Positions 1,298 through 18,382 of a stretch of 21,227 nucleotides of DNA are shown here, piece after piece. The position numbers and the translations under genes were made by a program. Each line of letters opens with the position of its first letter. The stretch's first letter is position 1. The notes under the pieces are model-generated. The model searched no databases. It was not told the DNA's origin and was given only the letters and a program-made list of their open reading frames with translations. This DNA comes from a virus. The stretch is taken from the IMG/VR virus record IMGVR_UViG_3300020474_000151, positions 1-21,227 of that record; one strand, given 5' to 3'.

Positions 1298-1921
1298 TTA
1301 TACTATATATGATACTTTTACAGGAATAGTTTGTGAACCACCCGTTTCGTTACCATATACCGTTATTGTTGTTTTAATATTTTCAGTTATATTTGGATTA
1401 GGAATAAACTCAAATTTTAATCCACTTTCAACTGCTGCTGTTGTAGTAACTTCATCACCTAAGAATACTGGTACTGAACCAGCTGATACTGCTAATCCAC
1501 TTCCTACAATTGTACCAGCGTTTTTATTTGCTAATACTATTGTATATCCAGCCTGTTGATTTCCAGCAGGAGATGTTGTAGGTACTAATGCTACTTCACC
1601 ACTTTTTTGGTTAACAGATATAGATGGTACACCAAATTCTACTTTTGGAATCTTAGTAGTACCTTTTGGTAATGTTACTAATTTATATCTTAATACTTGT
1701 GTTTCGTCTGGTGATGCCTCTAAAATTGGGATTGCTTTAATAGCTGCATCGTAATATGCAGAACCTTTGGGATGAGCTGGTTCATATAAACCATAATCTA
1801 TTTCATCATCTCCTAAAGCAAATCTCGTAATGTTAAGACCTTCACCTGTTGCGAGCTTTTCTCTACCCTTTTTGGTAAGAATTGCATCGACTGTGATTTC
1901 TGTGTTGTCTAAATATGCCAT
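1298..1921 (-). CDS. Virion structural protein, 207 aa
   Basis: The N-terminus (MAYLDNTEITVDAILTKKGR, then a FALGDDEIDYGLY segment) matches from memory a recurrent family of small structural proteins in large marine myoviruses. The rest (about residues 90-207) is Val/Thr/Gly-rich with alternating hydrophobic residues, as in a beta-sandwich. There is no membrane segment or cysteine. The start at 1921 has an AAGGGAA ribosome site. A 68-nt leader with an ATATTTATA element suggests that this gene begins its own two-gene transcript with the 410-aa gene. An adaptor or fibre-attachment role is plausible but is inference from position and composition only. Confidence 0.75.
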   Translation of the reverse strand: MAYLDNTEITVDAILTKKGREKLATGEGLNITRFALGDDEIDYGLYEPAHPKGSAYYDAAIKAIPILEASPDETQVLRYKLVTLPKGTTKIPKVEFGVPSISVNQKSGEVALVPTTSPAGNQQAGYTIVLANKNAGTIVGSGLAVSAGSVPVFLGDEVTTTAAVESGLKFEFIPNPNITENIKTTITVYGNETGGSQTIPVKVSYIV

Positions 1922-1957: not shown

Positions 1958-1966
1958 TATAAATAT
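1958..1966 (-). promoter_or_regulatory. Candidate phage late-promoter element ATATTTATA (copy 1)
   Basis: In the sense (minus) direction the 9-mer ATATTTATA lies 36 nt before the ATG at 1921, inside the 68-nt gap between the 1986-aa and 207-aa genes. The same 9-mer occurs in the other two gaps over 50 nt that precede virion genes. Promoter function is inference. Confidence 0.4.
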
Positions 1967-1989
1967 AACTATTTTTAATTTTCGATTAA

Positions 1990-4900
1990 TTATTCAACTT
2001 CTAATATTGGTTCACCACTTCCTCTACCACTATCTGATACTTTTAGAGTGTTAGGATTAGTAGTAAATGTCTCTACGGGAGGTGTTCCATCTAAAGTTGT
2101 AGCTTTTGTTTGCTTACTACCTTTGAAGAAAGAATTTTCCATCCCAGTTGTTTTATCTCCCACATTTCTATGATGCGTTGGTAGGTAACCACGTAGTGGT
2201 GTTACTTGTACTACCGTTCCATCTGGGTCTTTATCACCTACACTTGGCGCTGAACCCGATGGGGATTGTATTGTTACTAATGTAAATTCTCTTGTTGATT
2301 CAACAATTTTTTTACCTAAACTTGAATCATTAGAATTAACATTTATCTTTTCTTTAAATGTTTTGTTTTTCTTAACTATAAATACTTTAACTTTTTCTTT
2401 TACAAAATTATTATCTACATCTATTCTAGTTCTATGTGCAAATCCATTTGTACCAGGCCCTATTCCAAACCCAGCTACTGATAATGAATCTTTTGATAGT
2501 CCAATAACAGAATCAAAATCGAATGCATCAATTTCTGATTTAACAGAACCTGTCAATTGTGCATCTATTTCTATTGAGAATCCTCCCATATCAGAACCAG
2601 AGTTTCTTGTTATAACTCCCGAAACATCATCATCTGCAGATAAAGTAATTGAACCATTAATATCTTGTACACTAGCTACTAGCGTTTCTAATTTTGTATC
2701 AGTTATCGTACCATCTAATCCTTCTACAGATACTACAGGTGAAACTGATTCAGATAAATGTAAAAATGCTTCTTTTGGTATAAACTCAGTTGAAACATCA
2801 GGTGGTATATCAACAATAGATGATGAATGATGATGTATAGTTGCCTCTACTTCTTTATTTTCTACTTTATTTCTTTCTAAGAAGTGTGGTTCTATCAATA
2901 ACCCATCAATTAATTTTACCCTAGCAGGTAATAATTGATGTAGTGTTTCAAACATAGATTTATCTATATATTTAATTAAATTAATATATTCGTATATGTT
3001 TAACTCATATCTACCGAATACATAATCTCTCAATGTATTTAAATCTGGGTAATGGTCTTTGTATAAATCTTTTGGGTCTCCTATATAATCATCAATAACA
3101 AAATCAGGTAATGATTTTATTATATCCATATTTAATTCTTTTGTTGGTGATAAGAATATTCCTAATTTATTAGAATCAATTGGTGCTTTATCAAATGATT
3201 TTTTAGTACTTCTTTGTCTAAAACTCAAATCCATATCTAAGGTTTGAGATTCAAATCTAAATTTATCTGCTGGAGCAAATCCTACTGATGGTACTTTAGC
3301 GGTTACCTGTCTTTCATATATTTCAAAACTATAAGGATAGTTTGTTTGATTTTGGAAATTAGATGCAGTTGCATATGCAACATCATAATCTCTCTTAACT
3401 GCTACATTCGTTATTGATGTAGATACATTTAAGTTTTCAGGTTTTTCGAAATCTAATCTAAATTCTAAATCTTCGGTAGATGATGATATATGATTACCAT
3501 TTGTTTTATCAGGCATAAAAGTATGGTCTCTAATAATAGATTCCGATAATGCTGAACTCCAAATTCTAAATTCATCCATTGAACCTGTAAATCCATCACC
3601 TAAAGATATTTGTGAACCACTAAAGAATGTATCTACATTATTAAATGAACCTGTAGTACTACCAGTAACTTCCATTCGTATTCTTCCTTGGAAATCTTGC
3701 ATAGCATGTATATCAATGGATGCAGATGCTGGTCCTTGAGAAGCTGTATGGTAATTTATATTTGTAACAACTTGTGTATATTCATTATTGAATAATGAAC
3801 CAGAGTGGGTATAAACATATCCTTCTGATGAAGAATAAAATAATCTACCCAATGTACTAACTTTGTGTTCTAATCCAATGTTCCAATGTGGTTCATTACT
3901 AATAATTGTTTGGTTATTTCTATCATTAGTTTTAATTCTAAATTCTAATGCATGTGATGAAGATACTGCGTTTGTCACATTCCAATCTACATTTATTTTA
4001 GAATCATAATCAGCTTGGAATTTTACAGCTGCTGTTCTATCATCAAATGTAAATGTTGAAGATTGTGATTCCGTATTTCTTGGTCCACCAAATTCCATAA
4101 TAGTTAGAAGTGATGATGGAATACCATATGTAGTTAATAGTGCACTTATACCTCTACGAGTACCTTTGTGTTTTAATAAATATGGTAAGTTATTAAGGAT
4201 TCTTCTCCAAATAGTATTTTCGTATTCTTTACCACTTTTAATTAACTTAGAAGTTTGATTAGAATCTCTATATCCTAATGCATATTCCCATAGTTGTGAT
4301 GAGTTTTTAGATGAGTGAGGTATCCAACTGTAATTTTTAAGGATATGTTTTAACATATCATCAGTAATACCCATCCTTTGTTTTTCTTCAACAGTTTTTA
4401 ATGTCTCTAACCCTTTGATATAACTCCATATAATATCAAAGTGATGTCCTATCATTTGTAAAAATAATGTGTAATCATCATTTTCAGAATCTATCGCAAT
4501 AAATTCAGGTATATTATTTACTAAATAATTTTCATTTACAGAATCATGTTCAGATGAAGATACAATTATTGCATCAAACCAAGCTACAGAATTAGTACTT
4601 CCAGTTGATTCTAATGTAACACCATCAGCTTTCTTTGGATATGCTAATGATGAGGTTGATTCATATAAGAACTTTTCAAAACCATCAAAGTTTACTTTAA
4701 TATCATTTTGTTTCTTAACTATAGATTCTTTTTCTCTAAGTACGCTTAACGAAGATGTAGCTGAACCTACTGCATTGTTTAAGTTATCTAAACTTGAACT
4801 ATATATTTCTAACAGTGAAACTTTATAATGGAAGTTTCTACTTCTTTCTTCAGCTGAACCAAAGTGTGAAAAGTTATCAAATGCATAAGTTTCTGTTATT

Positions 4901-7900
4901 GTACCATCTGCATCCCATCCCTTATCTGTTTCTACATAATCATAAGAAGAAGATACATATTCTATTTCTAATTTATCTGTATCTATACCACTTTTAGATA
5001 CAAAAGTATTTATAAGTTTTGCTGATGATTGAGAACCACTATCTACTAATTCATCTATTAGTGTATATCCCATATCAGTTGGTGAACCACATAGGTTAAC
5101 ACCAAAGTTAGGTCCTTTTAATGGTACACAATATTCTTCTTCATCATCTATTATAGAAACTTCTTCAATAGTAGAAGGAGTTATTATTTTAGATAACCAA
5201 AGTGTACTGTTTGGTTGAATTGATTTATCTAATGGTTCATATAATTTTAAAATTAAAGAATCATATCCACCAATTCTTTTATTTGTTGCTTTACCAGTTA
5301 TTGGATGTGGTTCATAGTCAACAAAACTAACATCATCTGTTTCCCAAGTTGTAATTAGCTTATTATCACCATCACCAAAGTGTGCTAAATGAGTTAAATA
5401 TTTAGAAGTTTCATCATCAAATGTACTAAAATCAAATTGAAAAGCCCCACATAGTCTTGATATAACATCAGCTCTTGATAAAGTTAAGTTTCCTTTATCA
5501 AATCTAATTGTTAGTTCTTCGGTTTTACCTTTTATTACTTTATCTGTTGCTGTATTATATGGACAAAGGAATATACTAAATCTTATATTATCTTCATCTT
5601 CAGAATTTATTTTATCTCCAGCTAACTTTAATATTCTCGCTATATTGAAATCAACTGCTTGTGCTTTTCCAAATTTACCATAAAATATATCAGGTGAACC
5701 TACAGATATATTTACATAATTTGTATTTACAGATTCATATCCAATTGAAAAATCTACATTTAATCCTCTAAAATCAGCACCCTTAACTACAGATGGATAG
5801 GTTATATTAATAATATCAGGTCCTTCGATATATGATTCCGAAATAACATTTACACTAAATCTTACCTTTTCACCATCACCATAGTTTTTATTACTTGGTA
5901 TTAAATAACCAATATATTGACCCACACCTTCAGAAAACGCATTATTATTTAATGTAAACGTTCCTGCTGCATCTGAATTAAAATTAGTTATTTTTCTAAA
6001 TTGTAATTTTACCTGGTCTGCATTTAAAGAAGCGTATCCTATCATTATACCACCACCTGATATAGCATCTGCTATATTAACTGTATAGCTTGTATTGTTT
6101 AAAGTTAATGTTGGTTTAACAACTGATATTTGTTGTTGCCAATCTATGTACAAAGTCATTGAATTACCAACATTTAAAGTTAGTTCATTTAAGTCTAACT
6201 TATCCATTTCGCCTTCATCTGGCTGGTCATCTATTTTTCCTTTAAGAACACCAAACCCTTTTATATCATACCCATTAGTTTGTGTAATTGTTAATTCAAA
6301 AGAATTATCAGATTTGTACACTCCACCTGAGTTGAAAACTTTAGATGTTGATTTACCTATCTTTACATTAAATGTATCCATTCTTCCACCCTTAGAAACA
6401 ATCAATACTTCAGGAGTTGCTAATGGTTTAGGGTCATCTTTTGGATAATCATCTTTAATATCATCATCTTTGATATCAATTATTATCTTTTTAAAATCAA
6501 AAAGTAAAGTCCTTTGGTCGGAAGCATTTAAAGAAGTTGGAACTTCTTTACCATTTACATATTTCCTAACTTCAATTTCATATTTAAATTCAGTTCTTGT
6601 TCTTGTTTTTGTTACTTTTCTTCTAGTAGTAGAAGGGCCTGTTCTTCCTACAAAACGATTTCCTCCTCTACCTACATTTCTATTTATTCCTACTGTATCA
6701 GCATCCCCACCCATTCTCATTCTAATTAAAGATGCATTGGATTGGTCCATCAGATTACCAATTGGTTGTAATGCTGGTCCACCACCAAATCTATCTCTAC
6801 CATCAAATCTTCCTTCGTTATAAGGATTGAATCCACCTTGTATAAAGGAGGTTGGTCCTATATCAATAAAATCATCAGGTGGGCCTGATACTATTTCATA
6901 ATCATCATAGTTTTCTTTTACTTGTATAGATTTAGTAACCCCAGTAACAGTATAATAACACGCATCTTTTCCTAATCTATTTGTATATCCCGTTAATTGA
7001 GCGGTTATTTTTTTAGTTACACCTAAAACTGATTTTTTAGGAAGTTTAATAGCAGTATTTGTAGTTCCTGCTTTTTTACCATCAATGTAAACATCCGCAC
7101 CAACTGGAGATGATTGAACAATAAGAGCAAAATCATTATTTGGTATAACCGGCTTAGTTAATATCGGTGGTTTAGGTAATATTGGTACCGGGTCAGGTCT
7201 TGGAAACGTTCTAATAGGGTCTGGTCTTTCATCTAATCTCGGTGGTTTTGGTACTACACGTGGTCTAGGTTCTGGTCTATCAATGTTTACAGTTTCAAAC
7301 TGAGATGTACTGATTCTATCACCACCAGTTGTTGTTACCACTGGGGTCATTCCTTCTCCTGCAGCTACAAGCGCTCTACCACTTGGGCCTTGTCCACTTA
7401 TAATAGGCATTCCATAGTTTGATTCAACTCCATCATCAAATCCTCTATCTGTAGGTAATCCTCTTGGTCCGGCACTACCACCGAAAGTCATTGGTCTACC
7501 AATAACAATTGGTTTAGTTGGTCTAGTCGATATAGGAACTACAGGTGTAGGTGGTTTAATTATAATATCCCTCGCCATAGCAGCACCTTTATCTCTCATT
7601 GATTGAAGATAGCTATCTACATCAATTATAGGTCCTCCCCCCATAGGTGGAGGTGATATTCTTGGCGCTGGGTTTGGTCTCGGTGGAGGTGGTATTGGTA
7701 ATGGAGGTGGTATAATTATTCTATTAGCTGTATTTGAAGATGGTATTGCATCAACAGGAACTCTAACTACTTTTGGTGGAGTAGGTGCAGGTGGCATCGT
7801 TTTTAATGCAGCTAATTGAGCTGCAGCATTTCCTGTTAGGTTAAGTTGTTGACCTCTACCTCTTGGTCTCCTTGTCCCAGTTAAAGCTTTTGCGTGGCGA

Positions 7901-7950
7901 TTTCTGTTCCCAAATCCTATCCTACTTCTATTTCTAAAATTATACGCCAT
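1990..7950 (-). CDS. Giant composite tail/baseplate protein, 1986 aa (Pro-rich head, PEGA, gpI-like region, LamG-like domain)
   Basis: Seen in order: an Arg-rich N-terminus (1-35); a proline/glycine-rich linker to about 265; a PEGA-type domain at about 273-325 (SSPVGADVYIDGKKAG signature); a Gly/Arg-rich stretch and an acidic Lys/Asp stretch near 490-510; long beta-rich regions; and a helical region at about 1165-1285 with LPYLLKHKGTRRGISALL, which resembles P2 gpI-type tail proteins. A LamG/concanavalin-like domain follows at about 1330-1475, ending in GSMDEFRIWSSALSESII. A segment with LHQLLPARVKL lies near 1667, and a Ser-rich C-terminus closes the protein. No signal peptide is seen. The start is fixed by an AGAGGA site and by the 2-nt gap after the 584-aa gene. 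A role as a baseplate-periphery or fibre protein with a glycan-binding module is inference. It is much longer than ordinary gpI proteins. Confidence 0.85.
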   Translation of the reverse strand: MAYNFRNRSRIGFGNRNRHAKALTGTRRPRGRGQQLNLTGNAAAQLAALKTMPPAPTPPKVVRVPVDAIPSSNTANRIIIPPPLPIPPPPRPNPAPRISPPPMGGGPIIDVDSYLQSMRDKGAAMARDIIIKPPTPVVPISTRPTKPIVIGRPMTFGGSAGPRGLPTDRGFDDGVESNYGMPIISGQGPSGRALVAAGEGMTPVVTTTGGDRISTSQFETVNIDRPEPRPRVVPKPPRLDERPDPIRTFPRPDPVPILPKPPILTKPVIPNNDFALIVQSSPVGADVYIDGKKAGTTNTAIKLPKKSVLGVTKKITAQLTGYTNRLGKDACYYTVTGVTKSIQVKENYDDYEIVSGPPDDFIDIGPTSFIQGGFNPYNEGRFDGRDRFGGGPALQPIGNLMDQSNASLIRMRMGGDADTVGINRNVGRGGNRFVGRTGPSTTRRKVTKTRTRTEFKYEIEVRKYVNGKEVPTSLNASDQRTLLFDFKKIIIDIKDDDIKDDYPKDDPKPLATPEVLIVSKGGRMDTFNVKIGKSTSKVFNSGGVYKSDNSFELTITQTNGYDIKGFGVLKGKIDDQPDEGEMDKLDLNELTLNVGNSMTLYIDWQQQISVVKPTLTLNNTSYTVNIADAISGGGIMIGYASLNADQVKLQFRKITNFNSDAAGTFTLNNNAFSEGVGQYIGYLIPSNKNYGDGEKVRFSVNVISESYIEGPDIINITYPSVVKGADFRGLNVDFSIGYESVNTNYVNISVGSPDIFYGKFGKAQAVDFNIARILKLAGDKINSEDEDNIRFSIFLCPYNTATDKVIKGKTEELTIRFDKGNLTLSRADVISRLCGAFQFDFSTFDDETSKYLTHLAHFGDGDNKLITTWETDDVSFVDYEPHPITGKATNKRIGGYDSLILKLYEPLDKSIQPNSTLWLSKIITPSTIEEVSIIDDEEEYCVPLKGPNFGVNLCGSPTDMGYTLIDELVDSGSQSSAKLINTFVSKSGIDTDKLEIEYVSSSYDYVETDKGWDADGTITETYAFDNFSHFGSAEERSRNFHYKVSLLEIYSSSLDNLNNAVGSATSSLSVLREKESIVKKQNDIKVNFDGFEKFLYESTSSLAYPKKADGVTLESTGSTNSVAWFDAIIVSSSEHDSVNENYLVNNIPEFIAIDSENDDYTLFLQMIGHHFDIIWSYIKGLETLKTVEEKQRMGITDDMLKHILKNYSWIPHSSKNSSQLWEYALGYRDSNQTSKLIKSGKEYENTIWRRILNNLPYLLKHKGTRRGISALLTTYGIPSSLLTIMEFGGPRNTESQSSTFTFDDRTAAVKFQADYDSKINVDWNVTNAVSSSHALEFRIKTNDRNNQTIISNEPHWNIGLEHKVSTLGRLFYSSSEGYVYTHSGSLFNNEYTQVVTNINYHTASQGPASASIDIHAMQDFQGRIRMEVTGSTTGSFNNVDTFFSGSQISLGDGFTGSMDEFRIWSSALSESIIRDHTFMPDKTNGNHISSSTEDLEFRLDFEKPENLNVSTSITNVAVKRDYDVAYATASNFQNQTNYPYSFEIYERQVTAKVPSVGFAPADKFRFESQTLDMDLSFRQRSTKKSFDKAPIDSNKLGIFLSPTKELNMDIIKSLPDFVIDDYIGDPKDLYKDHYPDLNTLRDYVFGRYELNIYEYINLIKYIDKSMFETLHQLLPARVKLIDGLLIEPHFLERNKVENKEVEATIHHHSSSIVDIPPDVSTEFIPKEAFLHLSESVSPVVSVEGLDGTITDTKLETLVASVQDINGSITLSADDDVSGVITRNSGSDMGGFSIEIDAQLTGSVKSEIDAFDFDSVIGLSKDSLSVAGFGIGPGTNGFAHRTRIDVDNNFVKEKVKVFIVKKNKTFKEKINVNSNDSSLGKKIVESTREFTLVTIQSPSGSAPSVGDKDPDGTVVQVTPLRGYLPTHHRNVGDKTTGMENSFFKGSKQTKATTLDGTPPVETFTTNPNTLKVSDSGRGSGEPILEVE

Positions 7951-7952
7951 AT

Positions 7953-9707
7953 CTATCCTCTATAACTACTTCCAAATGGATTAAATCCGCTTCCGAAACC
8001 TGATTTCATATATCCTCCGAATGTTCCCATTCCACCTCCTCCGCCGCCGGATTGGAATCCACCTCTTCCTTCATCAAAGAAAGCATTTGGCTCTCCTTGA
8101 CTTATATCAGGAGCAGTTAATATTGTTGGTGGATTAGCTCTTGATTTATCAATTCCCCTTTTAGGTGGTTTTATTATTGGTGGAATCGGTCTTGGACGTG
8201 GTGGTGGTACATCTCCCCCAACTCCAATAATTGGTGTTAAAGGCCACTTAATTTGAGGCATTTGTGGAAATTTAATTGGTGGTATTATAATATCATCAAT
8301 TGGAAAAGGCCTTATAATAGGTGGTATCTTTATCTCTATTGGTTTTGGTTTAGGAGGTGGTGGTGGTAGAGGTTTTGGTTTAGCTTTAATTATAATAGGT
8401 TTAAAGTTTTTAACCTTACATAATTCTTTTTTAACTATCTGTCCAATTCCAGAAACCTTTACCGAGCCTTCTAATGCGCATATTCTTGATGAATCTCCTC
8501 CATTTAAATTAAACTTAATAGTAGCTCCTTGCATATTTTCATATGAGAAAAATGCAGACCTTGCAACTATAGATTTAAAAGGGAAACTTCCTGCTCTCCC
8601 AGTACCATTAGCGGTACATTGATAAAAATAATATACCTTTGGTGCAGGTTTTATTACTACAGGTGGTTTTGGTTTTGGTGGAGGTGGTGATTTTATTGTG
8701 TATGCTCCTTTCTTTGGAGGTCTGGGTTTTATTATCCTAGCTATAGAACTTGCCTTTGTATCCAATGTTTTAGTGGATGTAAATTTTTGAAGTATCTTTT
8801 GTACTTTATCTCTTGATTCTAATAATTCAGGAGATGTTATTGTTTTATCTATAATGTTACGTTTTGGTAAAAGACTTTCAATTACATCACAAACTATTTG
8901 GTTAGATACTTTATATAGTTTCATTATATCTAAACTAGCATTTGATGAACTTCTTAATGGTTTACCATAATTTTTATTATTAATTTTCCATTCTCTATTT
9001 GACATGAAATAATTAATTGCTTCTTTTGATTTTTCAACAACTCTTCTTAAAAAATCATCAATATCAGGAACTTGAAATTCTGATTTAACTAAGTTAATCC
9101 AATCCTGTCCATATGCATTTTGTAAAATCTTCTTAACTTCTTCAGCTGTAAGTGTTCCCTGAAAAGCTTGTATTCTATTTACAATATCATCTCTAAATTC
9201 ACCATCTCTTAAAAATATATCATATCTAGTTAATAAATCTCCTCTTAGAGCTGGATTATCTACTTTTAAAGGTAAAACTCTAACTTCTGTTCTTGATGGA
9301 GATATTTCATGTACCCAAAGTTTATTTTGTTCTTTTTCACTACCAACTCTTTTGTTAAGTAATGTTACTTGTGTTTTAAATATACCATTTCTATATCCAG
9401 CTTCGTTGATTAATTTTTCAACATCAACAAAATATTCATTTGGTTTATTTGATGCTTGGGGTCTTACTATAAGAATATATTTTCTAATAGATTCTTCATC
9501 GGTAACATCAACATATCTAACTGTTTTACCCGATTTACCTTGTGGTAATATATTATCGGCTTGGTCATATAAAATAAACTCAATAGTATCAGTAGAACCT
9601 CTACCAAAATAAGCAGGCAAAGAACCTCTTTCAAAGATTTTTCTATCTTTGTCACTAACATAGTAGCCAGTCTTATCTAAAATACTTTTAAAGTTTTTTA
9701 TAGCCAT
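7953..9707 (-). CDS. Virion structural protein with proline-rich linkers and Gly-rich tail, 584 aa
   Basis: Residues 1-310 form a mixed alpha/beta region that I do not recognise. A proline-rich linker (about 330-352, PPPPKPKPP) follows. Next is an island domain of about 85 residues containing three cysteines (YQC, RICALEG, ELCKVK), then a second long proline-rich linker (about 447-540), and finally a Gly/Phe-rich tail with a run of six glycines (about 545-584). There is no membrane segment. The start at 9707 has an AGAGG site and lies 1 nt after the upstream stop; the stop lies 2 nt before the giant gene, whose N-terminus is also proline-rich. The two products may assemble next to each other, but that is inference. 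The linkers suggest an extended, flexible virion protein. Function unknown. Confidence 0.75.
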   Translation of the reverse strand: MAIKNFKSILDKTGYYVSDKDRKIFERGSLPAYFGRGSTDTIEFILYDQADNILPQGKSGKTVRYVDVTDEESIRKYILIVRPQASNKPNEYFVDVEKLINEAGYRNGIFKTQVTLLNKRVGSEKEQNKLWVHEISPSRTEVRVLPLKVDNPALRGDLLTRYDIFLRDGEFRDDIVNRIQAFQGTLTAEEVKKILQNAYGQDWINLVKSEFQVPDIDDFLRRVVEKSKEAINYFMSNREWKINNKNYGKPLRSSSNASLDIMKLYKVSNQIVCDVIESLLPKRNIIDKTITSPELLESRDKVQKILQKFTSTKTLDTKASSIARIIKPRPPKKGAYTIKSPPPPKPKPPVVIKPAPKVYYFYQCTANGTGRAGSFPFKSIVARSAFFSYENMQGATIKFNLNGGDSSRICALEGSVKVSGIGQIVKKELCKVKNFKPIIIKAKPKPLPPPPPKPKPIEIKIPPIIRPFPIDDIIIPPIKFPQMPQIKWPLTPIIGVGGDVPPPRPRPIPPIIKPPKRGIDKSRANPPTILTAPDISQGEPNAFFDEGRGGFQSGGGGGGMGTFGGYMKSGFGSGFNPFGSSYRG

Positions 9708-9708
9708 A

Positions 9709-11088
9709 TTAACCTCTTATATTTTGTTTAAATATTTCAACCTCTTGAAGTAATGCTCCTTTAAGTAAAACCTTATATATACGTTCACCTCCGTAATTAT
9801 CATATACATAATATGATAAATGTCTACCTAACCAATGAATAGCTTGTCCAACAACATTATTTGTTTTAACAACACCCATTTGGTGAGCCATCCAATGACA
9901 CCAATATTTACTCATTCCATAATAAACTAAACCAGTGTATTGTGGATACTTTCTCATAAAGTCAACAATATGTCTTGACCACATTTGATATCCTACAACC
10001 AATTTAGGGTCTTTTATAAACATAGCATCTCCCCAATCTTCATCTGCTCTAAATATTTCGTATGGTATCCAACCTTGATGATACAGTTCAGCACATACAA
10101 TTTTCTTACTATTTTTATCTCCTCTATATGCTGTACTAAATGTTACACTTTCACCTCCTGATTTTACAGTAAGCTTTCCAGTTTTACTACCTTTACTCCA
10201 ACCACCTTTTTTTGCACATTTAAAGTTTCTTGTTTTACCAGATTCAACCGAACCACCTGATGGTGCTTGTAACCAACTTGTTGAACCTTCTTTACTAAAA
10301 GATATATTAATAGGTCCTTCTGAAATATTTAATACTTCAATCGTTGGTCCGTTTTTCCAACCTGTATTTGGTCCTTTTTTCGCCTCATAGTATCTTAAAT
10401 CTGCTTTATCAGGTTCACCTTTTTCTTTTATAACTGCCGTAAATGCGTTACCAGCTGCCTTTCCACCTTGTTGTAAGGCTTGTGTTTTACCACCTAATTG
10501 TTCTTCTAAGGATGCAACTTGTTGTACTAATGCTTCTTTTTGTGCAGCTAAACCTTCTACTTGAGCTTCCAATGAAACTCTTTCAATTGCCTCTAAAGTT
10601 CCTTTTTGAATTGCTTGTTGTAAATCGTTTACTGTACCTACAAATTTATCATTAGTTGCTTCTGATTGATTTTCAGCAACTGCTACTCTTACCAAAGATG
10701 CATCTAACTCACTTAATAGTCCATCCACTCTAGCTTCTAAGGATTTAGATAAACCCTTTTCTGTTGCTAATTCTGCTCTAACTTGTTCTATAATACTATT
10801 AGCTCTAGCCAATCTATCTAATACTGAATTATATTCATCTAATAAAACAACATCAGGTTGTTCTGTTGGTTTTGCTTTTATTAATTCACTTACAGTAGTA
10901 TCGATTGCTTTAACCAACTCCGATTCATCATATTTCATTCTACGAAGTCTACCAACAGTCTCACCATCCATTTCTCCACCCATTTGTGGAGCAAGAAAGG
11001 TGTGTCTACCAAATTCATCTAATGATTTGAGAGCTTTAGAACCACTCTGTGTTAGTTCTAATATTCTTTCTTCTTTGTCTAATGCCAT
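9709..11088 (-). CDS. Structural protein: coiled coil, Ig-like middle, conserved C-terminal domain, 459 aa
   Basis: Residues about 70-205 are heptad-rich (Leu/Ala/Glu/Gln) and should form a long coiled coil. Residues about 245-325 look like a small beta-sandwich (IEVLNISEGPINISF onwards), possibly BACON or Ig-like. The C-terminal 130 residues begin near VCAELYHQGWIPYEIFRADE and include WCHWMAHQMG. From memory this pattern (C.ELY.QG....I..AD) resembles an unnamed C-terminal domain shared by assorted phage and bacterial proteins. No signal peptide is seen. The start overlaps the stop of the 352-aa gene by one base (TAATG), indicating translational coupling. A trimeric or dimeric rod with a globular head is plausible. 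Function unknown; the context says virion. Confidence 0.75.
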   Translation of the reverse strand: MALDKEERILELTQSGSKALKSLDEFGRHTFLAPQMGGEMDGETVGRLRRMKYDESELVKAIDTTVSELIKAKPTEQPDVVLLDEYNSVLDRLARANSIIEQVRAELATEKGLSKSLEARVDGLLSELDASLVRVAVAENQSEATNDKFVGTVNDLQQAIQKGTLEAIERVSLEAQVEGLAAQKEALVQQVASLEEQLGGKTQALQQGGKAAGNAFTAVIKEKGEPDKADLRYYEAKKGPNTGWKNGPTIEVLNISEGPINISFSKEGSTSWLQAPSGGSVESGKTRNFKCAKKGGWSKGSKTGKLTVKSGGESVTFSTAYRGDKNSKKIVCAELYHQGWIPYEIFRADEDWGDAMFIKDPKLVVGYQMWSRHIVDFMRKYPQYTGLVYYGMSKYWCHWMAHQMGVVKTNNVVGQAIHWLGRHLSYYVYDNYGGERIYKVLLKGALLQEVEIFKQNIRG

Positions 11089-12146
11089 TATTTAGTTACT
11101 TCAAAAATATAATCATCATCGAAATGTTCAACAGAACCACTTAGTTCTATTTTCAATTCTACTTTATAACTTCTATTAATTTCAAAATTTGTAAAATCTA
11201 AACTAATTCTACTTTTATTTCCGTATGTATTTAATTTAGAATAATCTCCAAAAGGAATAATAATATCATTACTTTCTAAATCTCTTATTTGGTAGAATGA
11301 TGATGTTGGAAGTAAACTGCCGGTGGAATATCCAAATGTATTATTAAATGTTTTTTGTGGATATAATTCCCTTGCGAATACTTCAATATCAGCTTTTGTT
11401 CCTACTCTATAGGATTTTTTTAATCTTTTTAATGATATTTTGTATTCTTCTGGTAAATCAGTTAATGAACCTGTTTCGTACCTGCTATCATCCCAGCCTA
11501 TTCTTATTTTAGGTTGATAGATTGTATTGGTATCTTTACTAAAAAACTTTAATTGACCATAGTCAACATCATCGTTTTCTTTTGTATCAGCATGTTTTAT
11601 AATAAAACCTTCATTTGGATAACTATCATCTAACCAAAATGAAAGAGATGAAGATACATCAACTTCTAAATCAGTTGATTGGTATTCATATGATTGTGTT
11701 TGTTCTGATGCAGTGTACCACATACCACCGGCTCCATTATATGAACCAGTAGCTAATCCTCCGTTTGGGATTTCGGTTGGTAACCACTTGCTACCACTTT
11801 TTCTATAATTCCAAGTACAACCATCTGTACTTATATTATCAAACCTAGTACCTACTCCCATTTCCCAAGATTGAGATATTGGGTGTATGTGTAATGAATA
11901 TTGTAAAGGTATTTCTGATGGTTGTGTTTCTCTAAGAATAAGTTCTGCCTTACTCATAGTAACTTCTCCACTCGATAATTTGGATGAAAGAGAATTTAAA
12001 TCAAACTTTACCAAAGAACGAGCAGTATCTTTTAAATCACCATAATAAACTTTAGACACCTCTAATATCTCATCCAACCCAGTATTTTGTATAGGTTGTT
12101 GAGAAAATATAGTTGTATCCTTAGATGCTGTTAAAAAATAATACAT
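11088..12146 (-). CDS. DNRLRE-like structural protein, 352 aa
   Basis: The N-terminal part has the look of a DNRLRE-type beta-sandwich: ASKDTTIFS near the start, then RSLVKFDLNSL and KAELILRE, followed by aromatic/Gly-rich strands to about residue 220. This resemblance is by eye only. The remaining 130 residues are beta-rich and end in a DDDYIFEVTK tail. It has no signal peptide or membrane helix. The start at 12146 overlaps the gp6 stop by one base (TAATG) and has an AAGGAAGAG ribosome site, so it is coupled to gp6. Its place directly after gp6 suggests a baseplate-periphery or fibre-connection protein, which is inference. Confidence 0.7.
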   Translation of the reverse strand: MYYFLTASKDTTIFSQQPIQNTGLDEILEVSKVYYGDLKDTARSLVKFDLNSLSSKLSSGEVTMSKAELILRETQPSEIPLQYSLHIHPISQSWEMGVGTRFDNISTDGCTWNYRKSGSKWLPTEIPNGGLATGSYNGAGGMWYTASEQTQSYEYQSTDLEVDVSSSLSFWLDDSYPNEGFIIKHADTKENDDVDYGQLKFFSKDTNTIYQPKIRIGWDDSRYETGSLTDLPEEYKISLKRLKKSYRVGTKADIEVFARELYPQKTFNNTFGYSTGSLLPTSSFYQIRDLESNDIIIPFGDYSKLNTYGNKSRISLDFTNFEINRSYKVELKIELSGSVEHFDDDYIFEVTK

Positions 12147-14197
12147 TATACCACTCTTCCTTTTATATCGTTATCTGGATATTTAATTTCGAATATCGAT
12201 GGGTCTAATGAAGGATAAATTTGTTTATTCTTCGTAGCCGCTGATATATCGTATGCGTTTGGAGAATATCCAGAAGATTCTCCACATAGATTTTTGAATG
12301 TACACTCTACAACAGATTGTACACCTTCTACATTTCCAATTAACATTTCAACTTCACCAATGTTGATTGGTGTATTGAATGTCCATTTATCAATTTCAAA
12401 ATAATCTTTTACTGCTGTTATACAATTTGTTAATACTTCTCTTTTATTATAATCTCTATATACTCTTATAGAAAAATCTAATCCAATGTTTATAATAAAT
12501 CCATCCATTAGATTAATTCCATCAGTTAATACTCTAAATTCATTTAAATATGTTTTAATATTTTCTTTAACTGCTTTGTTTAATGATGATACATGCTTTT
12601 GTGAATTGTATCCTAAAACATATAAGTTAACCGCAAATGGATTATTTTTTTCTTTTGTGTTAGATTTTTTGTTAGATAAGAACTTTGTTAATTTTTGTTT
12701 AATATCCTTATCAGATATATCTCCATCATCTACCAAGTCTTGAACCAATGTACTGAATTCAGAAAGTGCATCAGGTGATGCTAATATTGAACCCGGTGAA
12801 TTATTATCTAAATTACCATCAGCTGCCACATATGCTTTAGCTACATTACCAAACTTAGGTGGCATTGATAATGCTCTAACTTGATAATCTTTAGCAGTAA
12901 CTGCTCTGTTTTGAGCTCCAAAGTTTGCAATTGCATTTTCTCTTATCTCTTCTAATGTTTCTGCACCCCTCCCACCTTTAGCTGGTTGGTCGTTATTTAC
13001 TGCTAATGAATTTTTAGCTTGTGCATATAATCCTTTTTTAACTTCATCAAATATATCTAAATCTTCATCAAAGTTAACATTAGTTATTCTTTTGATTGTA
13101 TTAGATGCTACATTTGTATTAACACCACCACCAACATAATACTTTACAGTTATTGTAGTATTTTTAGGTGATTGTCCATATGATTTGGTTAATAAAAAGT
13201 TTGATGGGTCAAATGAACTACCTAATCTGTTTATTGAATTTGGTAATCCCAATCCTACATTTTTAAAATTAGGTACTAACAACTCATCATCTTTTCCTGC
13301 ATCTCCACTACCAAATTGAATTGAAGTAGAGCCATCTGAATTAATTACTGATTTAAATCTTCTTGGTGTTTTTATTAATTTTAAAATAGATGAAACTGTA
13401 TCTTTAAATTGATACAAATCTTTATCGTTAGCTTCTGTATTGGAGTATTCAACATAAACCATTTCTTGCGCTAAGTAAGGAACTTCATAATATTTGTTAT
13501 TATTGGAATCCCTAACATCATATATTTGAATTACATTTTTATCAGGAATATCTATCCTTGCATATTCTTCTGTTGCTGTTCCAAATGTTATTTCTAATTC
13601 TTTTTCTTCTGCTGAGATTACATCAACATATTTTTTTACCAAATAAAAAGTTGGTGTATTGGTATCACCATCTCTTTCATATATTGTTATTTCTCTATCA
13701 AGTTCATCAGCAAAATCTAATAACTCTGTTGTTCTGAAAGTAATACCATCTGAGTCTACTTCCATTCCTTCTTTAACTCTTAAAAAATAATCACTATCTG
13801 GTTCATATCTTAAATCACCACTTGCTATTGGGTCTGCTTTAATTCTTGAAGGTACTAATTGATATACTGTTAAATTTGTTACCGCTGGTGAAGTTACTTT
13901 GGGTTTATATCCCATAAACTTAGATAGTTCAAATATATTATCTCTATCTTCTGCGGTTGTTAGTAAAGATTCTTTTAAAGTATCATCTATATAATATCCT
14001 AAAACATCACCTACATAAGATGCCATTTCAATAAACATCATACCTGGCGATGATTCGTTAAAATCAGTATATGTAGATGGGAAATATGTTTTCGCAAAAT
14101 CAATTAGATTTGTTCTAAATGATTCAAAATCTTTATTAAGGTATTTTATATCTCTACCTTTATTCTTAAAATTCTTTATTTGATTATTTAATGCCAT
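12146..14197 (-). CDS. 6: Baseplate wedge protein gp6 (baseplate J-like)
   Basis: This is the T4 gp6-family wedge subunit, which forms the ring that holds the contractile-tail baseplate together. The N-terminal region carries the usual signature: IKYLNKDFESFR, then FNESSPGMMFIEMASYVGDVLGYY (about residues 47-70) and a DNIFELSKFMGYKP block. A J-like motif, RAVTAKDY, lies near residue 433. At 683 aa it is close to T4 gp6 in length. It lies one base downstream of gp25, the usual neighbour in T4-like phages. The start at 14197 is the only one that preserves the family N-terminus; its ribosome site is weak, so translation may depend on coupling to gp25. Family assignment is confident. Confidence 0.93.
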   Translation of the reverse strand: MALNNQIKNFKNKGRDIKYLNKDFESFRTNLIDFAKTYFPSTYTDFNESSPGMMFIEMASYVGDVLGYYIDDTLKESLLTTAEDRDNIFELSKFMGYKPKVTSPAVTNLTVYQLVPSRIKADPIASGDLRYEPDSDYFLRVKEGMEVDSDGITFRTTELLDFADELDREITIYERDGDTNTPTFYLVKKYVDVISAEEKELEITFGTATEEYARIDIPDKNVIQIYDVRDSNNNKYYEVPYLAQEMVYVEYSNTEANDKDLYQFKDTVSSILKLIKTPRRFKSVINSDGSTSIQFGSGDAGKDDELLVPNFKNVGLGLPNSINRLGSSFDPSNFLLTKSYGQSPKNTTITVKYYVGGGVNTNVASNTIKRITNVNFDEDLDIFDEVKKGLYAQAKNSLAVNNDQPAKGGRGAETLEEIRENAIANFGAQNRAVTAKDYQVRALSMPPKFGNVAKAYVAADGNLDNNSPGSILASPDALSEFSTLVQDLVDDGDISDKDIKQKLTKFLSNKKSNTKEKNNPFAVNLYVLGYNSQKHVSSLNKAVKENIKTYLNEFRVLTDGINLMDGFIINIGLDFSIRVYRDYNKREVLTNCITAVKDYFEIDKWTFNTPINIGEVEMLIGNVEGVQSVVECTFKNLCGESSGYSPNAYDISAATKNKQIYPSLDPSIFEIKYPDNDIKGRVV

Positions 14198-14198
14198 A

Positions 14199-14630
14199 TT
14201 ATTCTGAAACTACAAAAGTTACTGTATCTAATGTTTGTTGTCCTTCTAATTTAAATTTAATCGAAACCGATGCTTGGTTAAAGTCAGTCATTTCTTTACT
14301 GATATCAACGTTTATTTCTTCTGCCACAACATATGGTAACCATTGTTCCAATGCTGAATTAATGGATTCTTCGATATCTTCTTCTAATGTATCGGTAGCT
14401 TGTTCAAATAATAAACCATGCAATCCACTTCCAAATTCAGGTTGAAATAATCTTTCTCCTCTTTTTGTTTTTAATAAATTGATAATATTACTTCTTACTT
14501 GTTCGCTAGTGTTAAACGATTGAGCAAAATATCCAGTATTACCTTTTTGTAAAGGTAGTGTTAATCCGATTGCGAAGTTGTTAAACTCCTCCGTATCAAT
14601 TACTAATTTTTGCCCTAATTCGTAAGCCAT
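14199..14630 (-). CDS. 25: Baseplate wedge protein gp25 (GPW/gp25 family)
   Basis: At 143 aa this is the normal length for gp25, the wedge component that links the inner baseplate to the tail sheath. The family hallmark is clear: NIINLLKTKRGERLFQPEFG, then SGLHGLLFE. In this family the Arg-Gly-Glu-Arg block and the following PEFG are the most conserved part. The protein has a beta-rich C-terminal half (EEINVDISKE onward) and no membrane segment. The start at 14630 has an AGGAGAG ribosome site. It lies 14 nt after the 175-aa gene and 1 nt before gp6, so it belongs to the same transcript. Despite older lysozyme-like annotations for this family, no catalytic site is evident here. Confidence 0.93.
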   Translation of the reverse strand: MAYELGQKLVIDTEEFNNFAIGLTLPLQKGNTGYFAQSFNTSEQVRSNIINLLKTKRGERLFQPEFGSGLHGLLFEQATDTLEEDIEESINSALEQWLPYVVAEEINVDISKEMTDFNQASVSIKFKLEGQQTLDTVTFVVSE

Positions 14631-14644
14631 CTCTCTCTCCTATA

Positions 14645-15172
14645 CTATCGTTTAAATCTTTTTACCAATTCACTATTATCTCTATTTAATATTTTATCTA
14701 AACCGGGTAATCCAGTTTGTACACCTAATCCACCACTTTGTGGTTTACTAGCTCCACCTAAGTTTATATCACCATATCCCATTTGTTGAGCCATTTGTTG
14801 TCTCATATTAGATACTGGTGATGTTCCAATTGGTTGTTGACCTGTTGGTACATTATGTGTTCCAAATGTAACTGTTTGGTCATTTGGAGCTTCTGTTGTT
14901 TGTGCAGTTTCGTTTAATATATTGTTTAAAACTGCATTTTTTGTATATTGTTTAGTTTCAGTATTTGCCTTTCTATCATCTTCTAAAACAGCTTCTGCTA
15001 AACTAAATGGGTCTACATTTGTAGAACTTTTTTGAGGTTCAGCTTTAATCCTTGATTGAACTGCCTCTTCTAAAATCTTAGGGAATTGGTTTTGGAGGAA
15101 GTTTAATTGTTGTTTTTGTACTTCAACTTCTACCAATGCCTTAATAACTTTAACTAATTTTTTAGGTTTCAT
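14645..15172 (-). CDS. Conserved phage protein of unknown function, 175 aa
   Basis: The first 45 residues are Lys-rich and helical (KPKKLVKVIKALVEVEVQKQ), followed by a Gln/Thr/Ala-rich low-complexity middle with MRQQMAQQMG near residue 125. A Gly-rich stretch leads to a basic C-terminus containing GLPGLDKILNRDNSELVKRF. Proteins with a similar ending occur, from memory, next to baseplate genes of marine T4-like phages. There are no cysteines, membrane segments or enzyme motifs. A 56-nt leader with an ATATTTATA element lies upstream, so this gene may be the first of the gp25-gp6-giant-protein transcript. A structural or assembly role is inferred from position only. Confidence 0.7.
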   Translation of the reverse strand: MKPKKLVKVIKALVEVEVQKQQLNFLQNQFPKILEEAVQSRIKAEPQKSSTNVDPFSLAEAVLEDDRKANTETKQYTKNAVLNNILNETAQTTEAPNDQTVTFGTHNVPTGQQPIGTSPVSNMRQQMAQQMGYGDINLGGASKPQSGGLGVQTGLPGLDKILNRDNSELVKRFKR

Positions 15173-15197
15173 AATCGTATTAATATGTTTTTCTTAC

Positions 15198-15206
15198 TAT
15201 AAATAT
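15198..15206 (-). promoter_or_regulatory. Candidate phage late-promoter element ATATTTATA (copy 2)
   Basis: The sense-strand 9-mer ATATTTATA lies 25 nt before the ATG at 15172, in the 56-nt gap after the 188-aa gene. If it is a promoter, it would drive the long transcript through gp25, gp6 and the giant structural genes. Supported by recurrence at 1958 and 17474. Confidence 0.4.
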
Positions 15207-15228
15207 ATGTTTTAAATATTTTGATGTT

Positions 15229-15795
15229 TTATCCCGGTACAGTAAATGTACTCCAAACAATTACTCCGGGACCAGGTACAACCGATGGACCTGCTGGATA
15301 TAATGATATTGTATTAATAATACCTGATACTGTAGATAAATGTAATGTTGCTGCGGTTACAAATAAATTGATAAAAATCATAACATCTAAATTTGGTGGT
15401 GTGGGAAAATCACTTTGCCATTGACCAGGATTAGTACAATTTCCACTTACAAATTGTATATTTGCTACAGAACCCGGTGCAGGTGGAGGTGGTGGTGGTC
15501 CTTGTAGAGTTAACCCAGTCCAATATCCTTTTACCGCTGGACCTAATTTTTTTATCCAAGGAAAACTTCCTTTTTGTTTTTGGAATCCCTCTGCTAAACA
15601 AACTTTAACTAAACTTTCCATCATAGAAGTATTCCCTTTTTGAATTTTAGATAAGTTTGGATTTTGAGTACCAAACGATTTTACACAACTATCATATTCC
15701 GATGTTAGCTTTTTAGCAAAATCAGCTTGTGATGGAGCTCCACCTTCTTGCTCCATATATCTTTTCATATTTTGTTTGAATATTCCCCACCCCAT
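15229..15795 (-). CDS. Conserved baseplate-region protein, 188 aa, with poly-proline linker and hydrophobic C-terminal half
   Basis: Residues 1-90 form a helical domain that begins MGWGIFKQNMKRYMEQEGG and includes DFAKKLTSEYDSCVKSFG. A run of six prolines (about 101-106) separates it from a hydrophobic second half with LDVMIFINLFVTAATLHLST (about 136-155) and a Pro/Gly-rich end, VVPGPGVIVWSTFTVPG. The hydrophobic segment could be a membrane helix, but in this setting a buried packing strand or helix is as likely. No signal peptide is seen. The gene starts 2 nt after the gp5-like gene and is probably co-translated with it; no clear ribosome site is visible. I recall similar proteins beside gp5 in marine myoviruses. 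Role unknown; a partner of the spike is possible. Confidence 0.7.
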   Translation of the reverse strand: MGWGIFKQNMKRYMEQEGGAPSQADFAKKLTSEYDSCVKSFGTQNPNLSKIQKGNTSMMESLVKVCLAEGFQKQKGSFPWIKKLGPAVKGYWTGLTLQGPPPPPPAPGSVANIQFVSGNCTNPGQWQSDFPTPPNLDVMIFINLFVTAATLHLSTVSGIINTISLYPAGPSVVPGPGVIVWSTFTVPG

Positions 15796-15797
15796 TT

Positions 15798-17045
15798 TTA
15801 TACTGTAAAGTTTTGCTTACTAAGTATCGTTTCTAATTTAGATTTTATAGAAGCATATGTAGCGGAGTTTACAGGTGGACCGGATGGACCTGCGGGTGTT
15901 GGGTGTGTTTCTGCTTGTAGTGCATCTAATATCTCACCCATTATATCTATTAGAGTTTGTCCTAATGCAACTGGCTCATCTTCGTTTCCATCTTCACCTA
16001 AGTAAATCTTACCACCATCACTATTAATAATAAAGTTATTACCTTGAGTATTCCACTCCATATTATCATTTGTTTGTGCAAAAATCCCACCTTCGTTATC
16101 TATTGATAATGATTTATCAGAAATAAATCCGTAATTACCTTTAGAGTAAAAAATCATTTCTGATTCTTTGGCAGAAATAATAACCCTACCACTATTAATT
16201 AATATTTGGTCACCTTTTAGTTCCGAAGGATAATCTTCGAACATTTCTGGCTTTGTTTCAAAATCAGTAGAACCTCCATCATCTACAACACCAGGTTGGA
16301 ATTCTAATAGATAATCTTGACTTGTCATAGATATAATTGAACCATCCCTATTTACATCTTCTTCTACTGGGTCTGGTTGTTCTACATCATTCTGAGTAAT
16401 ATCAGATTCTCTATTTCTAATTATAATTGTTGGTGATTCTGTTTCGTCTTGGTTATTATATCCACTAAATCTAATAGATTGTCCAAATCTACTTTGTATC
16501 AGAGTATCTCCTTCATATAATTTTAATCTATGAATTGTTTCACTTGGTACAAAATATTCACCGAACCCAGTTGTTTCACCATCAGCATTTGAATTTGATA
16601 TTCCTGTATTTGATGTTGATTCATATCCTGCCGATTCTCCTTTTGGATTAGAATCTACTTGTCTTGATTTTAGAAAGTCATCCAATGAGGTTTCGGTAGA
16701 ATTAAAGTTTTGGAACTCACCACCTGTTCTTCTTTGGTATCTATATCCAGTTCCTACTTTTATTAAATCTACCACTTCATTTTTTAATGGTAAAGTAAAG
16801 CTAGAGGTATCTAATGGAAATGCAACTACATTACCTCCGCCTGAATCCGTTAATCCTCCCTTACCTAATATTTTAAATTGAATTGCACCTATTGATGTAG
16901 GTGATACTAATTTATCACTTATTGGTTTTGATTCCTCATCTAATATAATATCAGTAACAATAGCAGGTATTGTATTTTCTTTACCCGTTGGTTGACTTTT
17001 ACGCCTACTACCTGCTCCACTACCACCTCTTCTATTCTTAATCAT
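15798..17045 (-). CDS. 5: gp5-like baseplate hub/spike protein without a visible lysozyme domain
   Basis: A basic, Gly/Ser-rich N-terminus (1-25) leads into a probable OB-fold (about 25-110, from IPAIVTDIILDEES to YRYQRR). A second beta domain at about 168-195 (IHRLKLYEGDTLIQSRFGQ) and a repeat-rich beta region at about 275-350 (GDQILINSGRVIISAKESE, then ISDKSLSIDNEGG) resemble the needle of gp5/VgrG/gpV proteins. The C-terminus is an acidic-to-polar helix with THPTPAGPSGPP, a feature common in phage spike proteins. At 415 aa it is shorter than T4 gp5 (575 aa), and I see no lysozyme-like catalytic region. The start overlaps the 137-aa gene by 8 nt and has an AGAAGG site. The gp5-like role is fairly sure; exact orthology is less so. 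Confidence 0.8.
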   Translation of the reverse strand: MIKNRRGGSGAGSRRKSQPTGKENTIPAIVTDIILDEESKPISDKLVSPTSIGAIQFKILGKGGLTDSGGGNVVAFPLDTSSFTLPLKNEVVDLIKVGTGYRYQRRTGGEFQNFNSTETSLDDFLKSRQVDSNPKGESAGYESTSNTGISNSNADGETTGFGEYFVPSETIHRLKLYEGDTLIQSRFGQSIRFSGYNNQDETESPTIIIRNRESDITQNDVEQPDPVEEDVNRDGSIISMTSQDYLLEFQPGVVDDGGSTDFETKPEMFEDYPSELKGDQILINSGRVIISAKESEMIFYSKGNYGFISDKSLSIDNEGGIFAQTNDNMEWNTQGNNFIINSDGGKIYLGEDGNEDEPVALGQTLIDIMGEILDALQAETHPTPAGPSGPPVNSATYASIKSKLETILSKQNFTV

Positions 17046-17451
17046 TACTTACCTTCTGCTTTAATTCTTCTACTTCATTAGTCAATTCATCAACCTTTTC
17101 ATTAGCTTCAGTAGCTCCATCAACAACCACTTCTTCTAATTGTTGTAGTAATTGTTCTTTTTCTTTATCACTAAGGAATCCAATATCACCATCTACTTTA
17201 TCTCTTGAAGCAATCATTCTTTGTGCTATAGCTGCCATTTTAATTAGTGATTCATCATTTCTAACAGATGTATCTACTAAATCTTTTAGTATAGGTCCGA
17301 TTACTGCCATATCACCAGAATGTCTAATTACTTTCTTCATTTCAGCAATTAGTTCTGATATTCTTGTTTTTTTATTTTGCTGGTTATCGTAGATATCTTT
17401 AAACAATCCACTTAAATCTTTACCAGGAAATAATTCAAAATTTGTACTCAT
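17038..17451 (-). CDS. Small conserved T4-like phage protein with C-terminal coiled coil, 137 aa
   Basis: The first gene of the virion block. Residues 1-95 are helical and contain FPGKDLSGLFKDIYDNQ, then VIGPILKDLVDTSVRNDE and LIKMAAIAQRM. This layout recurs, from memory, in small proteins upstream of gp5 in marine T4-like phages. The last 30 residues (EANEKVDELTNEVEELKQKV) form a clear coiled coil. There is no membrane segment or cysteine. Upstream there is only a weak AAAGA ribosome site, but an ATATTTATA element lies 22 nt before the ATG and a terminator closes the preceding cassette, so transcription of the structural genes probably starts here. Function unknown; a baseplate assembly or structural role is inferred. 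Confidence 0.75.
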   Translation of the reverse strand: MSTNFELFPGKDLSGLFKDIYDNQQNKKTRISELIAEMKKVIRHSGDMAVIGPILKDLVDTSVRNDESLIKMAAIAQRMIASRDKVDGDIGFLSDKEKEQLLQQLEEVVVDGATEANEKVDELTNEVEELKQKVSND

Positions 17452-17473
17452 AATCTTTATATATTGTCTTGTA

Positions 17474-17482
17474 TATAAATAT
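17474..17482 (-). promoter_or_regulatory. Candidate phage late-promoter element ATATTTATA (copy 3)
   Basis: The sense-strand 9-mer lies 22 nt before the ATG at 17451 and about 8 nt beyond the U-run of the preceding terminator. A 12-bp stretch here (GTATATAAATAT on the plus strand) is identical to the one at 1955-1966. The terminator-then-element order fits a transcription start for the virion block. Confidence 0.45.
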
Positions 17483-17489: not shown

Positions 17490-17517
17490 AAAAAAACCTC
17501 ACTTTTTCAAGTGAGGT
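17490..17517 (-). terminator. Intrinsic terminator after the holin-like gene
   Basis: In minus-strand RNA a perfect 9-bp stem (ACCTCACTT/AAGTGAGGT, 4-nt loop, 17496-17517) is followed by seven U residues (17496-17490). It lies about 32 nt past the stop of the 78-aa gene. The U-run on this side only shows that it serves the minus strand. Confidence 0.88.
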
Positions 17518-17786: not shown

Positions 17787-17829
17787 ATTATCTCTCCTCT
17801 GTTTTAATTAATTGTCAAATAACTTTTCC

Positions 17830-17858
17830 ATATTACAAAACGTCGGACATGTCAACAA
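17830..17858 (-). promoter_or_regulatory. Candidate sigma70-type promoter for the holin-like gene
   Basis: Minus-strand -35 TTGTTG (17853-17858) and -10 TAATAT (17830-17835) are separated by 17 nt, about 44 nt before the ATG. An overlapping TTGACA at 17850-17855 would leave only 14 nt and is less likely. The rest of the 203-nt gap holds the terminator of the next gene and a small ACACT/AGTGT hairpin at 17917-17930. Confidence 0.4.
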
Positions 17859-17936
17859 TAACTATAGTATATATTAAGTAAAAAGTATGTTTTTAATTTT
17901 AACACCGAATGGGTAAACACTATCGAGTGTCAAATA

Positions 17937-17966
17937 AAAAACCCCTACATTTCTGTAAGGGTTTTT
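17937..17966 (-). terminator. Intrinsic terminator after the secreted-protein gene
   Basis: A stem of about 13 bp with a 4-nt loop has A/T-rich ends that supply a U-run in minus-strand RNA. One internal pair (17945/17958) is a mismatch on the plus strand but a G-U pair on the minus strand, which supports minus-strand use. It lies about 24 nt past the stop at 17990. Confidence 0.85.
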
Positions 17967-17989: not shown

Positions 17990-18334
17990 TTAGTTTTTTA
18001 GAGCTACTAATTGCTTCAATCGTTCCAATTCTGCCTTCATCCTTTCGAACTCTAACTCTTTATAAGTATATTTAGGTTGCCCTTTAGGTTTAATCCATAC
18101 TAACTTTCCGTTGTCGTACAGAGCTTTTGTTCCTACATCATCTCTCCAATAAGAGTGTTTAATTAATGTGTTATCATCTAATTTGATAAACGTACCTTTT
18201 TGATGTACAGAACCATCTTCGTTGTAAACAGTATATAAATACTCGTTATCCTCTACTAATTGTAAGGTTTTTTGTTGACCGAATGTTAATGTGGTCATCA
18301 TTAGTAAGAGGAATGTTGTGATAATTGTTTTCAT
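17990..18334 (-). CDS. Small secreted protein with flavobacterial-style signal peptide, 114 aa
   Basis: The N-terminus is a textbook Sec signal peptide: MKT, a hydrophobic core IITTFLLLMMTTL, then TFGQQ, with cleavage likely after Gly19. No lipobox cysteine is present. The mature part has two similar beta-hairpin pieces (YNEDGSVHQKGTF and LYDNGKLVWIKPKG), faintly like MORN/YwqK-type repeats, and ends in a charged helix (ELEFERMKAELERLKQLV). I chose the start at 18334 because a perfect AAAGGAGG ribosome site lies 5 nt upstream; the in-frame ATG at 18364 would put ten extra residues before the signal. The gene has its own promoter-like sequence and terminator. Function unknown; a periplasmic or surface role that changes the host, or a part in lysis, is inference. 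It could have been acquired from a host. Confidence 0.75.
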   Translation of the reverse strand: MKTIITTFLLLMMTTLTFGQQKTLQLVEDNEYLYTVYNEDGSVHQKGTFIKLDDNTLIKHSYWRDDVGTKALYDNGKLVWIKPKGQPKYTYKELEFERMKAELERLKQLVALKN

Positions 18335-18339
18335 AATAT

Positions 18340-18347: not shown

Positions 18348-18353
18348 AATATA

Positions 18354-18382
18354 AGTATAACCAATGTTAACTTAACGTTAAG
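18354..18382 (-). promoter_or_regulatory. Candidate promoter with an overlapping palindrome, secreted-protein gene
   Basis: A minus-strand -35-like TTAACG (18376-18381) and -10-like TATACT (18354-18359) are separated by 16 nt. The -35 sits inside a perfect 12-bp palindrome, CTTAACGTTAAG (18371-18382), next to a further GTTAAC palindrome (18366-18371). The layout resembles an operator over a promoter, but no regulator can be named. Confidence 0.35.

Follow-up and report, generated by a model that had tools for sequence, protein, structure and literature searches.

The late promoter of phage T4 consists of a single AT-rich -10-type box, TATAAATA, which occupies positions -13 to -6 and is used together with the phage factor gp55 (PMC2988020; PMC7892883). 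In the T4 complex, the A at -9 lies against Asn13 and His95 and the A at -8 against Thr99, while the A at -12 is stacked on Tyr97 (PMC7892883). Late promoters of the cyanophage S-PM2 type have the form NATAAATA (PMC2984593). On the side of possible hosts, the -7 element of flavobacterial sigmaA reads TAnnTTTG, and in F. psychrophilum 5.5% of the mapped mRNAs are leaderless (PMC9723704).

The window analysed here, a 21,227-nt stretch of a virus (IMG/VR record IMGVR_UViG_3300020474_000151), carries the nine-letter box ATATTTATA in front of three virion genes. The box is likely to be a -10-type late promoter element, acting in the sense direction and used by the host RNA polymerase together with a phage gp55-like factor. 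It would thus be a new spelling of the sense late promoter, very probably served by that factor.

A nine-letter box in three virion leaders

There are exactly three copies of ATATTTATA in the window, all on the minus (sense) strand, and their positions and distances to the following ATG agree with those given in the first-pass annotation (Table 1). The total itself is ordinary, with 3 copies observed against 2.2 expected; what is unusual is that 3/3 lie inside the three virion leaders, 222 nt in total, and in a single orientation, and in this respect the earlier claim of a placement beyond chance holds. Boxes 1 and 3 further share the 12 bases ATATTTATATAC, likewise as previously noted. The two cassette leaders, 17787-17989 and 18335-18403, had been described as free of the element, which stands for the exact word; the latter leader does however contain the one-mismatch form ATACTTATA, and the equivalent leader of the relative G007 has an exact ATATTTATA. 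Strong Shine-Dalgarno-like sequences (AGGAGG, GAGGAGA) set both cassette leaders apart from those that follow boxes 1-3. Sense-strand TATAAATA occurs once in the window, within a gene, and none was found in the window leaders. An intrinsic-terminator-like hairpin directly upstream of box 3 is predicted to separate the upstream transcript from the one that would start at the box.

The genes behind the boxes have counterparts with similar leaders elsewhere. The box is present in the leaders of the immuto gp107 and gp117 orthologues in the relatives G001, G002 and G007 as well as in Flavobacterium phage immuto itself, and in G001 it is found 21 nt ahead of the gene at the place equivalent to box 2, two upstream of gp25/gp6. 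The region 1990-7950 encodes a 1986-residue baseplate-region protein that has no PHROGs match and of which immuto gp109 is probably the counterpart. The stretch 18404-20104, flanked by the sigma factor gene on one side and the virion genes on the other, encodes a complete NodU-type carbamoyltransferase; a relative (L075) has a similar gene placed 3 nt after a late box.

Table 1. Positions of the boxes and associated features in the window
Feature	Position	Strand	Remarks
Late box 1, ATATTTATA	1958..1966	-	36 nt before ATG of 1298-1921 gene; predicted start near 1953-1954
Late box 2, ATATTTATA	15198..15206	-	25 nt before ATG of 14645-15172 gene; predicted start near 15193-15194
Late box 3, ATATTTATA	17474..17482	-	22 nt before ATG of 17038-17451 gene; predicted start near 17469-17470
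One-mismatch late box, ATACTTATA	18350..18358	-	In 18335-18403 leader, 15 nt before ATG at 18334
Intrinsic-terminator-like hairpin, then T run	17496..17517	-	Directly upstream of box 3; same hairpin also listed on + strand
Gene predicted under box 1	1298..1921	-	Position of immuto gp107, tail gene cluster
Gene predicted under box 2	14645..15172	-	First of run leading into gp25/gp6 baseplate genes
gp25 baseplate gene	14199..14630	-	In run after 14645-15172 gene
gp6 baseplate gene	12146..14197	-	In run after 14645-15172 gene
Gene predicted under box 3	17038..17451	-	Position and family of immuto gp117
Small secreted-type protein gene	17990..18334	-	ATG 15 nt after ATACTTATA
gp55-like sigma factor	20085..20807	-	Sigma region 2 at ~11-112; extra helical C-terminal domain at ~139-224

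Placement and gene class of the box in related phages

Relatives were recruited by the factor and the gp6 baseplate protein, which yielded hundreds of contig stretches from IMG/VR, the named relatives being immuto, Microcystis phage Mel-JY01 and the 484-kb record LR756508; a scan with the Mel-JY01 factor returned zero relatives. Among the leaders of 97 non-redundant contigs (1.47 Mb, simple longest-ATG ORF calls), ATATTTATA is the most enriched nine-letter word. Its 278 copies in these contigs include 213 sense and 18 antisense ones in leaders. The pooled set has 405 copies, of which 278 (69%) end 14-32 nt ahead of an ORF start, compared to 887 of 26400 (3.4%) for 125 other A4T5 words; the next-best of these words are mostly the same box, shifted. 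As ATATTTATA is its own reversal, a reversed-pattern control is void and composition-matched words were used in its place. An enrichment in relatives, the lack of which the first-pass annotation had named as evidence against its proposal, is present. Mel-JY01 follows the same pattern, with 11 of its 23 copies at promoter position against 3.6% (P=1e-10).

The direction of the box is likewise consistent over whole contigs, with sense to antisense ratios of 37:4, 48:4, 35:5, 17:0, 25:2 and 25:0, and 16:1 in immuto. The sense strand of the window is A-rich, which favours the reverse complement of ATATTTATA, so strand skew offers no explanation for this direction. The sense spelling in the relatives is A or C followed by TATTTATA, and immuto-like phages have CTATTTATA at the same place in many other leaders (22 at promoter distance, 0 in a control stretch). 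The open-access literature yielded no relevant description of ATATTTATA or TATTTATA as a phage promoter, an absence that carries little weight given that scope.

With genes classified by homology labels in four genomes, the late box is found in 26 of 42 virion leaders versus 4 of 30 other leaders (P=3.5e-5), which supports the proposed late promoter ahead of virion genes, while a host-type box of the TAnnTTTG family has the opposite distribution, with 2/42 and 12/30, respectively (P=4e-4). The two classes were split by pattern, since motif EM on mixed leaders merged them. The preference is not exclusive, as more than a third of the labelled virion leaders have no late box and the four non-virion leaders that carry one leave late-only use unsupported. 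In immuto the box precedes the genes for TerL, tail sheath, tail tube, baseplate hub and tail spike along with gp107 and gp117, and in Mel-JY01 those for portal and tail tube. At 18-37 kb, the immuto genome also has annotated dpdA, queC, queD, queE, folE and queF genes, a set which suggests 7-deazaguanine DNA modification.

The host-type boxes provide a direct comparison for the view that ATATTTATA is itself one form of the sigmaA -7 element of the host and is recognised by the unmodified holoenzyme, possibly helped by a phage activator. The sequence TATATTT is indeed common to both elements, TATATTTA, which is the box with its usual preceding T, fits TAnnTTT, and promoters of the TCGTATATTTG type, with TTTGG upstream, do serve other genes in close relatives. 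However, the hallmarks of flavobacterial sigmaA promoters (PMC9723704), TAnnTTTG with a TTG-type element upstream, are missing from the late box: the final G is absent, and the upstream TTTGG is found in only 3 of 46 late boxes compared to 10 of 16 host-type promoters of the window clade. No conserved -35 element was found in late-box leaders either, where nothing upstream is conserved beyond AT richness. In flavobacterial chromosome pieces, none of 28 ATATTTATA copies is at promoter position but 77 of 482 TAYNTTTG copies are, which makes the box specific to phages. Together with the separation of the two boxes by gene class and the lack of a match to any sigma motif that the text on F. psychrophilum describes, this renders a host sigmaA origin of the box unlikely.

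The host-type box of the window clade matches the flavobacterial sigmaA element, and hosts of this clade are for that reason probably Bacteroidota. Mel-JY01 carries CGTATATTTG-type promoters that are typical of Bacteroidota sigmaA, and its recorded host, the cyanobacterium Microcystis, may deserve checking; an argument from two host phyla based on this phage was consequently dropped.

The gp55-like factor and the core of the probable late promoter

The predicted structure of the gp55-like factor (mean pLDDT 75.6) finds mostly sigma factors in Foldseek searches. T4 gp55 (7D7C chain F) ties for the top VIA score with Z 10.6 and an rmsd of 4.4 over 111 residues, the scores of other sigma region 2 structures come close to this, and isolated sigma region 2 structures fit at 2.3-2.6 Å rmsd. 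A sigma region 2 fold is therefore well supported at the level of the model, and a descent from gp55, beyond general membership among sigma factors, appears likely; the hhalign comparison of the factor profile with the gp55 family is modest (probability 44%, E=2.3e-4). The factor had no match in Pfam, in PHROGs or in a sequence profile search of solved structures.

Compared with T4 gp55, the factor is extended by a helical C-terminal domain of ~85-100 residues, modelled with a pLDDT of 84.6. Many helical proteins match this domain at Z 4-5, and the sigmaA chains among them, which would allow a sigma region 4 reading, reach Z 4.1. An acidic-aromatic end (DEFW, LDNEYL) is found in 41 of 51 distinct tails in the window clade and in 1 of 64 in the immuto clade, and in the former it recalls the clamp-binding tail. 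A sliding clamp of the T4 gp45 type (PF02916, PF09116), the co-activator in T4-type late promoter systems, gave no match over the cut-off in the relatives. Some relatives encode AAA proteins of clamp-loader size, with a distribution that splits partly like the factor tails. A phage beta-prime RNA polymerase subunit (PF00623) was not found in the relatives, so the host RNA polymerase is presumably used.

The box and the factor can be set against the T4 system position by position. Both systems have a phage sigma factor with a region 2 fold and a single -10-type AT box ahead of virion genes, with no -35 element. With transcription starting at base 4 after the box, the box would extend from -12 to -4 and its core TATTTA from -11 to -6, a register relative to T4 that may be shifted by one or two bases, and the core would then differ from the T4 core TAAATA only by an A to T change at -9 and -8. 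The first-pass annotation had observed, correctly, that TATTTATA is the reverse complement of TATAAATA and had presented the element as a mirrored T4 box. That likeness is a formal one only, as in the sense direction the two cores differ just at two central positions, and the annotation's suggestion that the gp55-like factor has a box unlike that of T4 is supported. Immuto-like phages have A or C as the first base of the box, which also recalls the C at -12 in phage Aeh1.

In a joint alignment of the factors of T4, cyanophages, RM378 and the new family, the residue corresponding to T4 Tyr97 is the only invariant one. Asn13, which contacts -9 in T4, is invariant in the T4-type set and replaced in the new factor family and in RM378. 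The cyanophages of the S-PM2 type, which are likewise T4-related aquatic phages with a gp55 sigma factor, have Phe at the His95 position as in the new family but keep both TATAAATA and Asn13, so His95 cannot be the sole discriminator. A distant relative is the factor of the Rhodothermus phage RM378 (hhalign 94%, E=1.4e-7). The sense box of this phage, TTATTTAA, ends in AA rather than ATA and is found within 80 nt of a start in 29 of 38 copies compared to 13 of 38 for its reverse complement, with the start codons nearer, mostly at 6-17 nt. In LR756508 a weaker box, CTATTTAA, is present in 9/17. A tentative scenario, which we regard as quite possible rather than probable, is that a T4-related branch from RM378 to hundreds of aquatic contigs re-specified its late promoter at -9/-8, the bases read by the gp55 pockets, through an altered gp55 homologue with a further C-terminal domain, one clade keeping a clamp-binding-like tail and another being without it.

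The pairing of this factor with the box is deduced from their joint occurrence, and the genomes of the relatives were annotated here only in part, which leaves some room for another phage sigma factor or activator as the reader of the box. Against this, all phages examined have both the factor and a TATTTA-type core, RM378 among them and LR756508 with a weaker signal, and the 20085-20807 protein itself has the sigma region 2 fold, so that a different reader seems rather improbable.

Probable transcription start and meaning of the box

The distances between box and start codon give a clue to the likely start site. Apart from the main group, 20 copies sit 3-4 nt ahead of an ATG, 11-fold over background, while distances of 5-13 nt are hardly enriched. 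For 17 of the 20 ORFs concerned, the following 20 codons contain no further in-frame ATG, and in one case 43 homologues align with the ORF Met to Met. Since some copies are this close to the start codon, transcription is expected to begin ~4-5 nt after the box, which fits near-leaderless mRNAs starting at base 4-5. In T4-type late promoter systems, the start is one helical turn downstream of the box. Purines occupy bases 4 and 5 after the box in 78% and 77% of cases, respectively, the whole leader being A-rich, however. Eight TTATTTAA copies in RM378 lie exactly 6 nt ahead of the start and suggest near-leaderless mRNAs there as well. Finally, a terminator-like hairpin is found within 60 nt upstream of 20 of 129 boxes versus ~0.5% of random positions, which implies a new transcription start at the box.

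The favoured mechanism would then be as follows. The host RNA polymerase would carry the phage-encoded gp55-like sigma factor, and this holoenzyme would open the DNA at ATATTTATA as a -10-type recognition element with no -35 element. Transcription would begin ~4-5 nt downstream of the box in the sense direction, presumably late in infection, and yield virion mRNAs with leaders of mostly ~10-30 nt, or almost none when the ATG is 3-4 nt after the box.

The fairly regular spacing to start codons could also be expected of a processing or translation signal acting in RNA, but the variation of the distance between 14 and 32 nt, the distinct class at 3-4 nt, the terminators directly upstream, which leave little to process, and the enrichment by gene class make it very improbable that the box is such a signal and not a promoter. 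Antisense firing, which the first-pass annotation had considered on the grounds that the box, read in reverse complement, matches the T4 late box perfectly, is scarcely credible, as transcripts from TATAAATA boxes would at each site lead away from the virion genes, the direction of the box follows that of the genes in the contig leaders and in RM378, which has genes on both strands, and the box lies on the sense side, a short way ahead of start codons and in many cases directly behind terminators.

As a sense promoter, the box would make the late-gene switch readable in a large group of uncultured aquatic phages whose genes are mostly unlabelled, and would help to tell late from early transcription units from sequence alone. 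The phages also offer a natural experiment in which a phage sigma factor and its promoter appear to have changed together, with the isolated phage immuto and the solved T4 gp55 complex at hand, and the box and factor are a candidate phage-specific promoter/factor pair for laboratory use in Bacteroidota.
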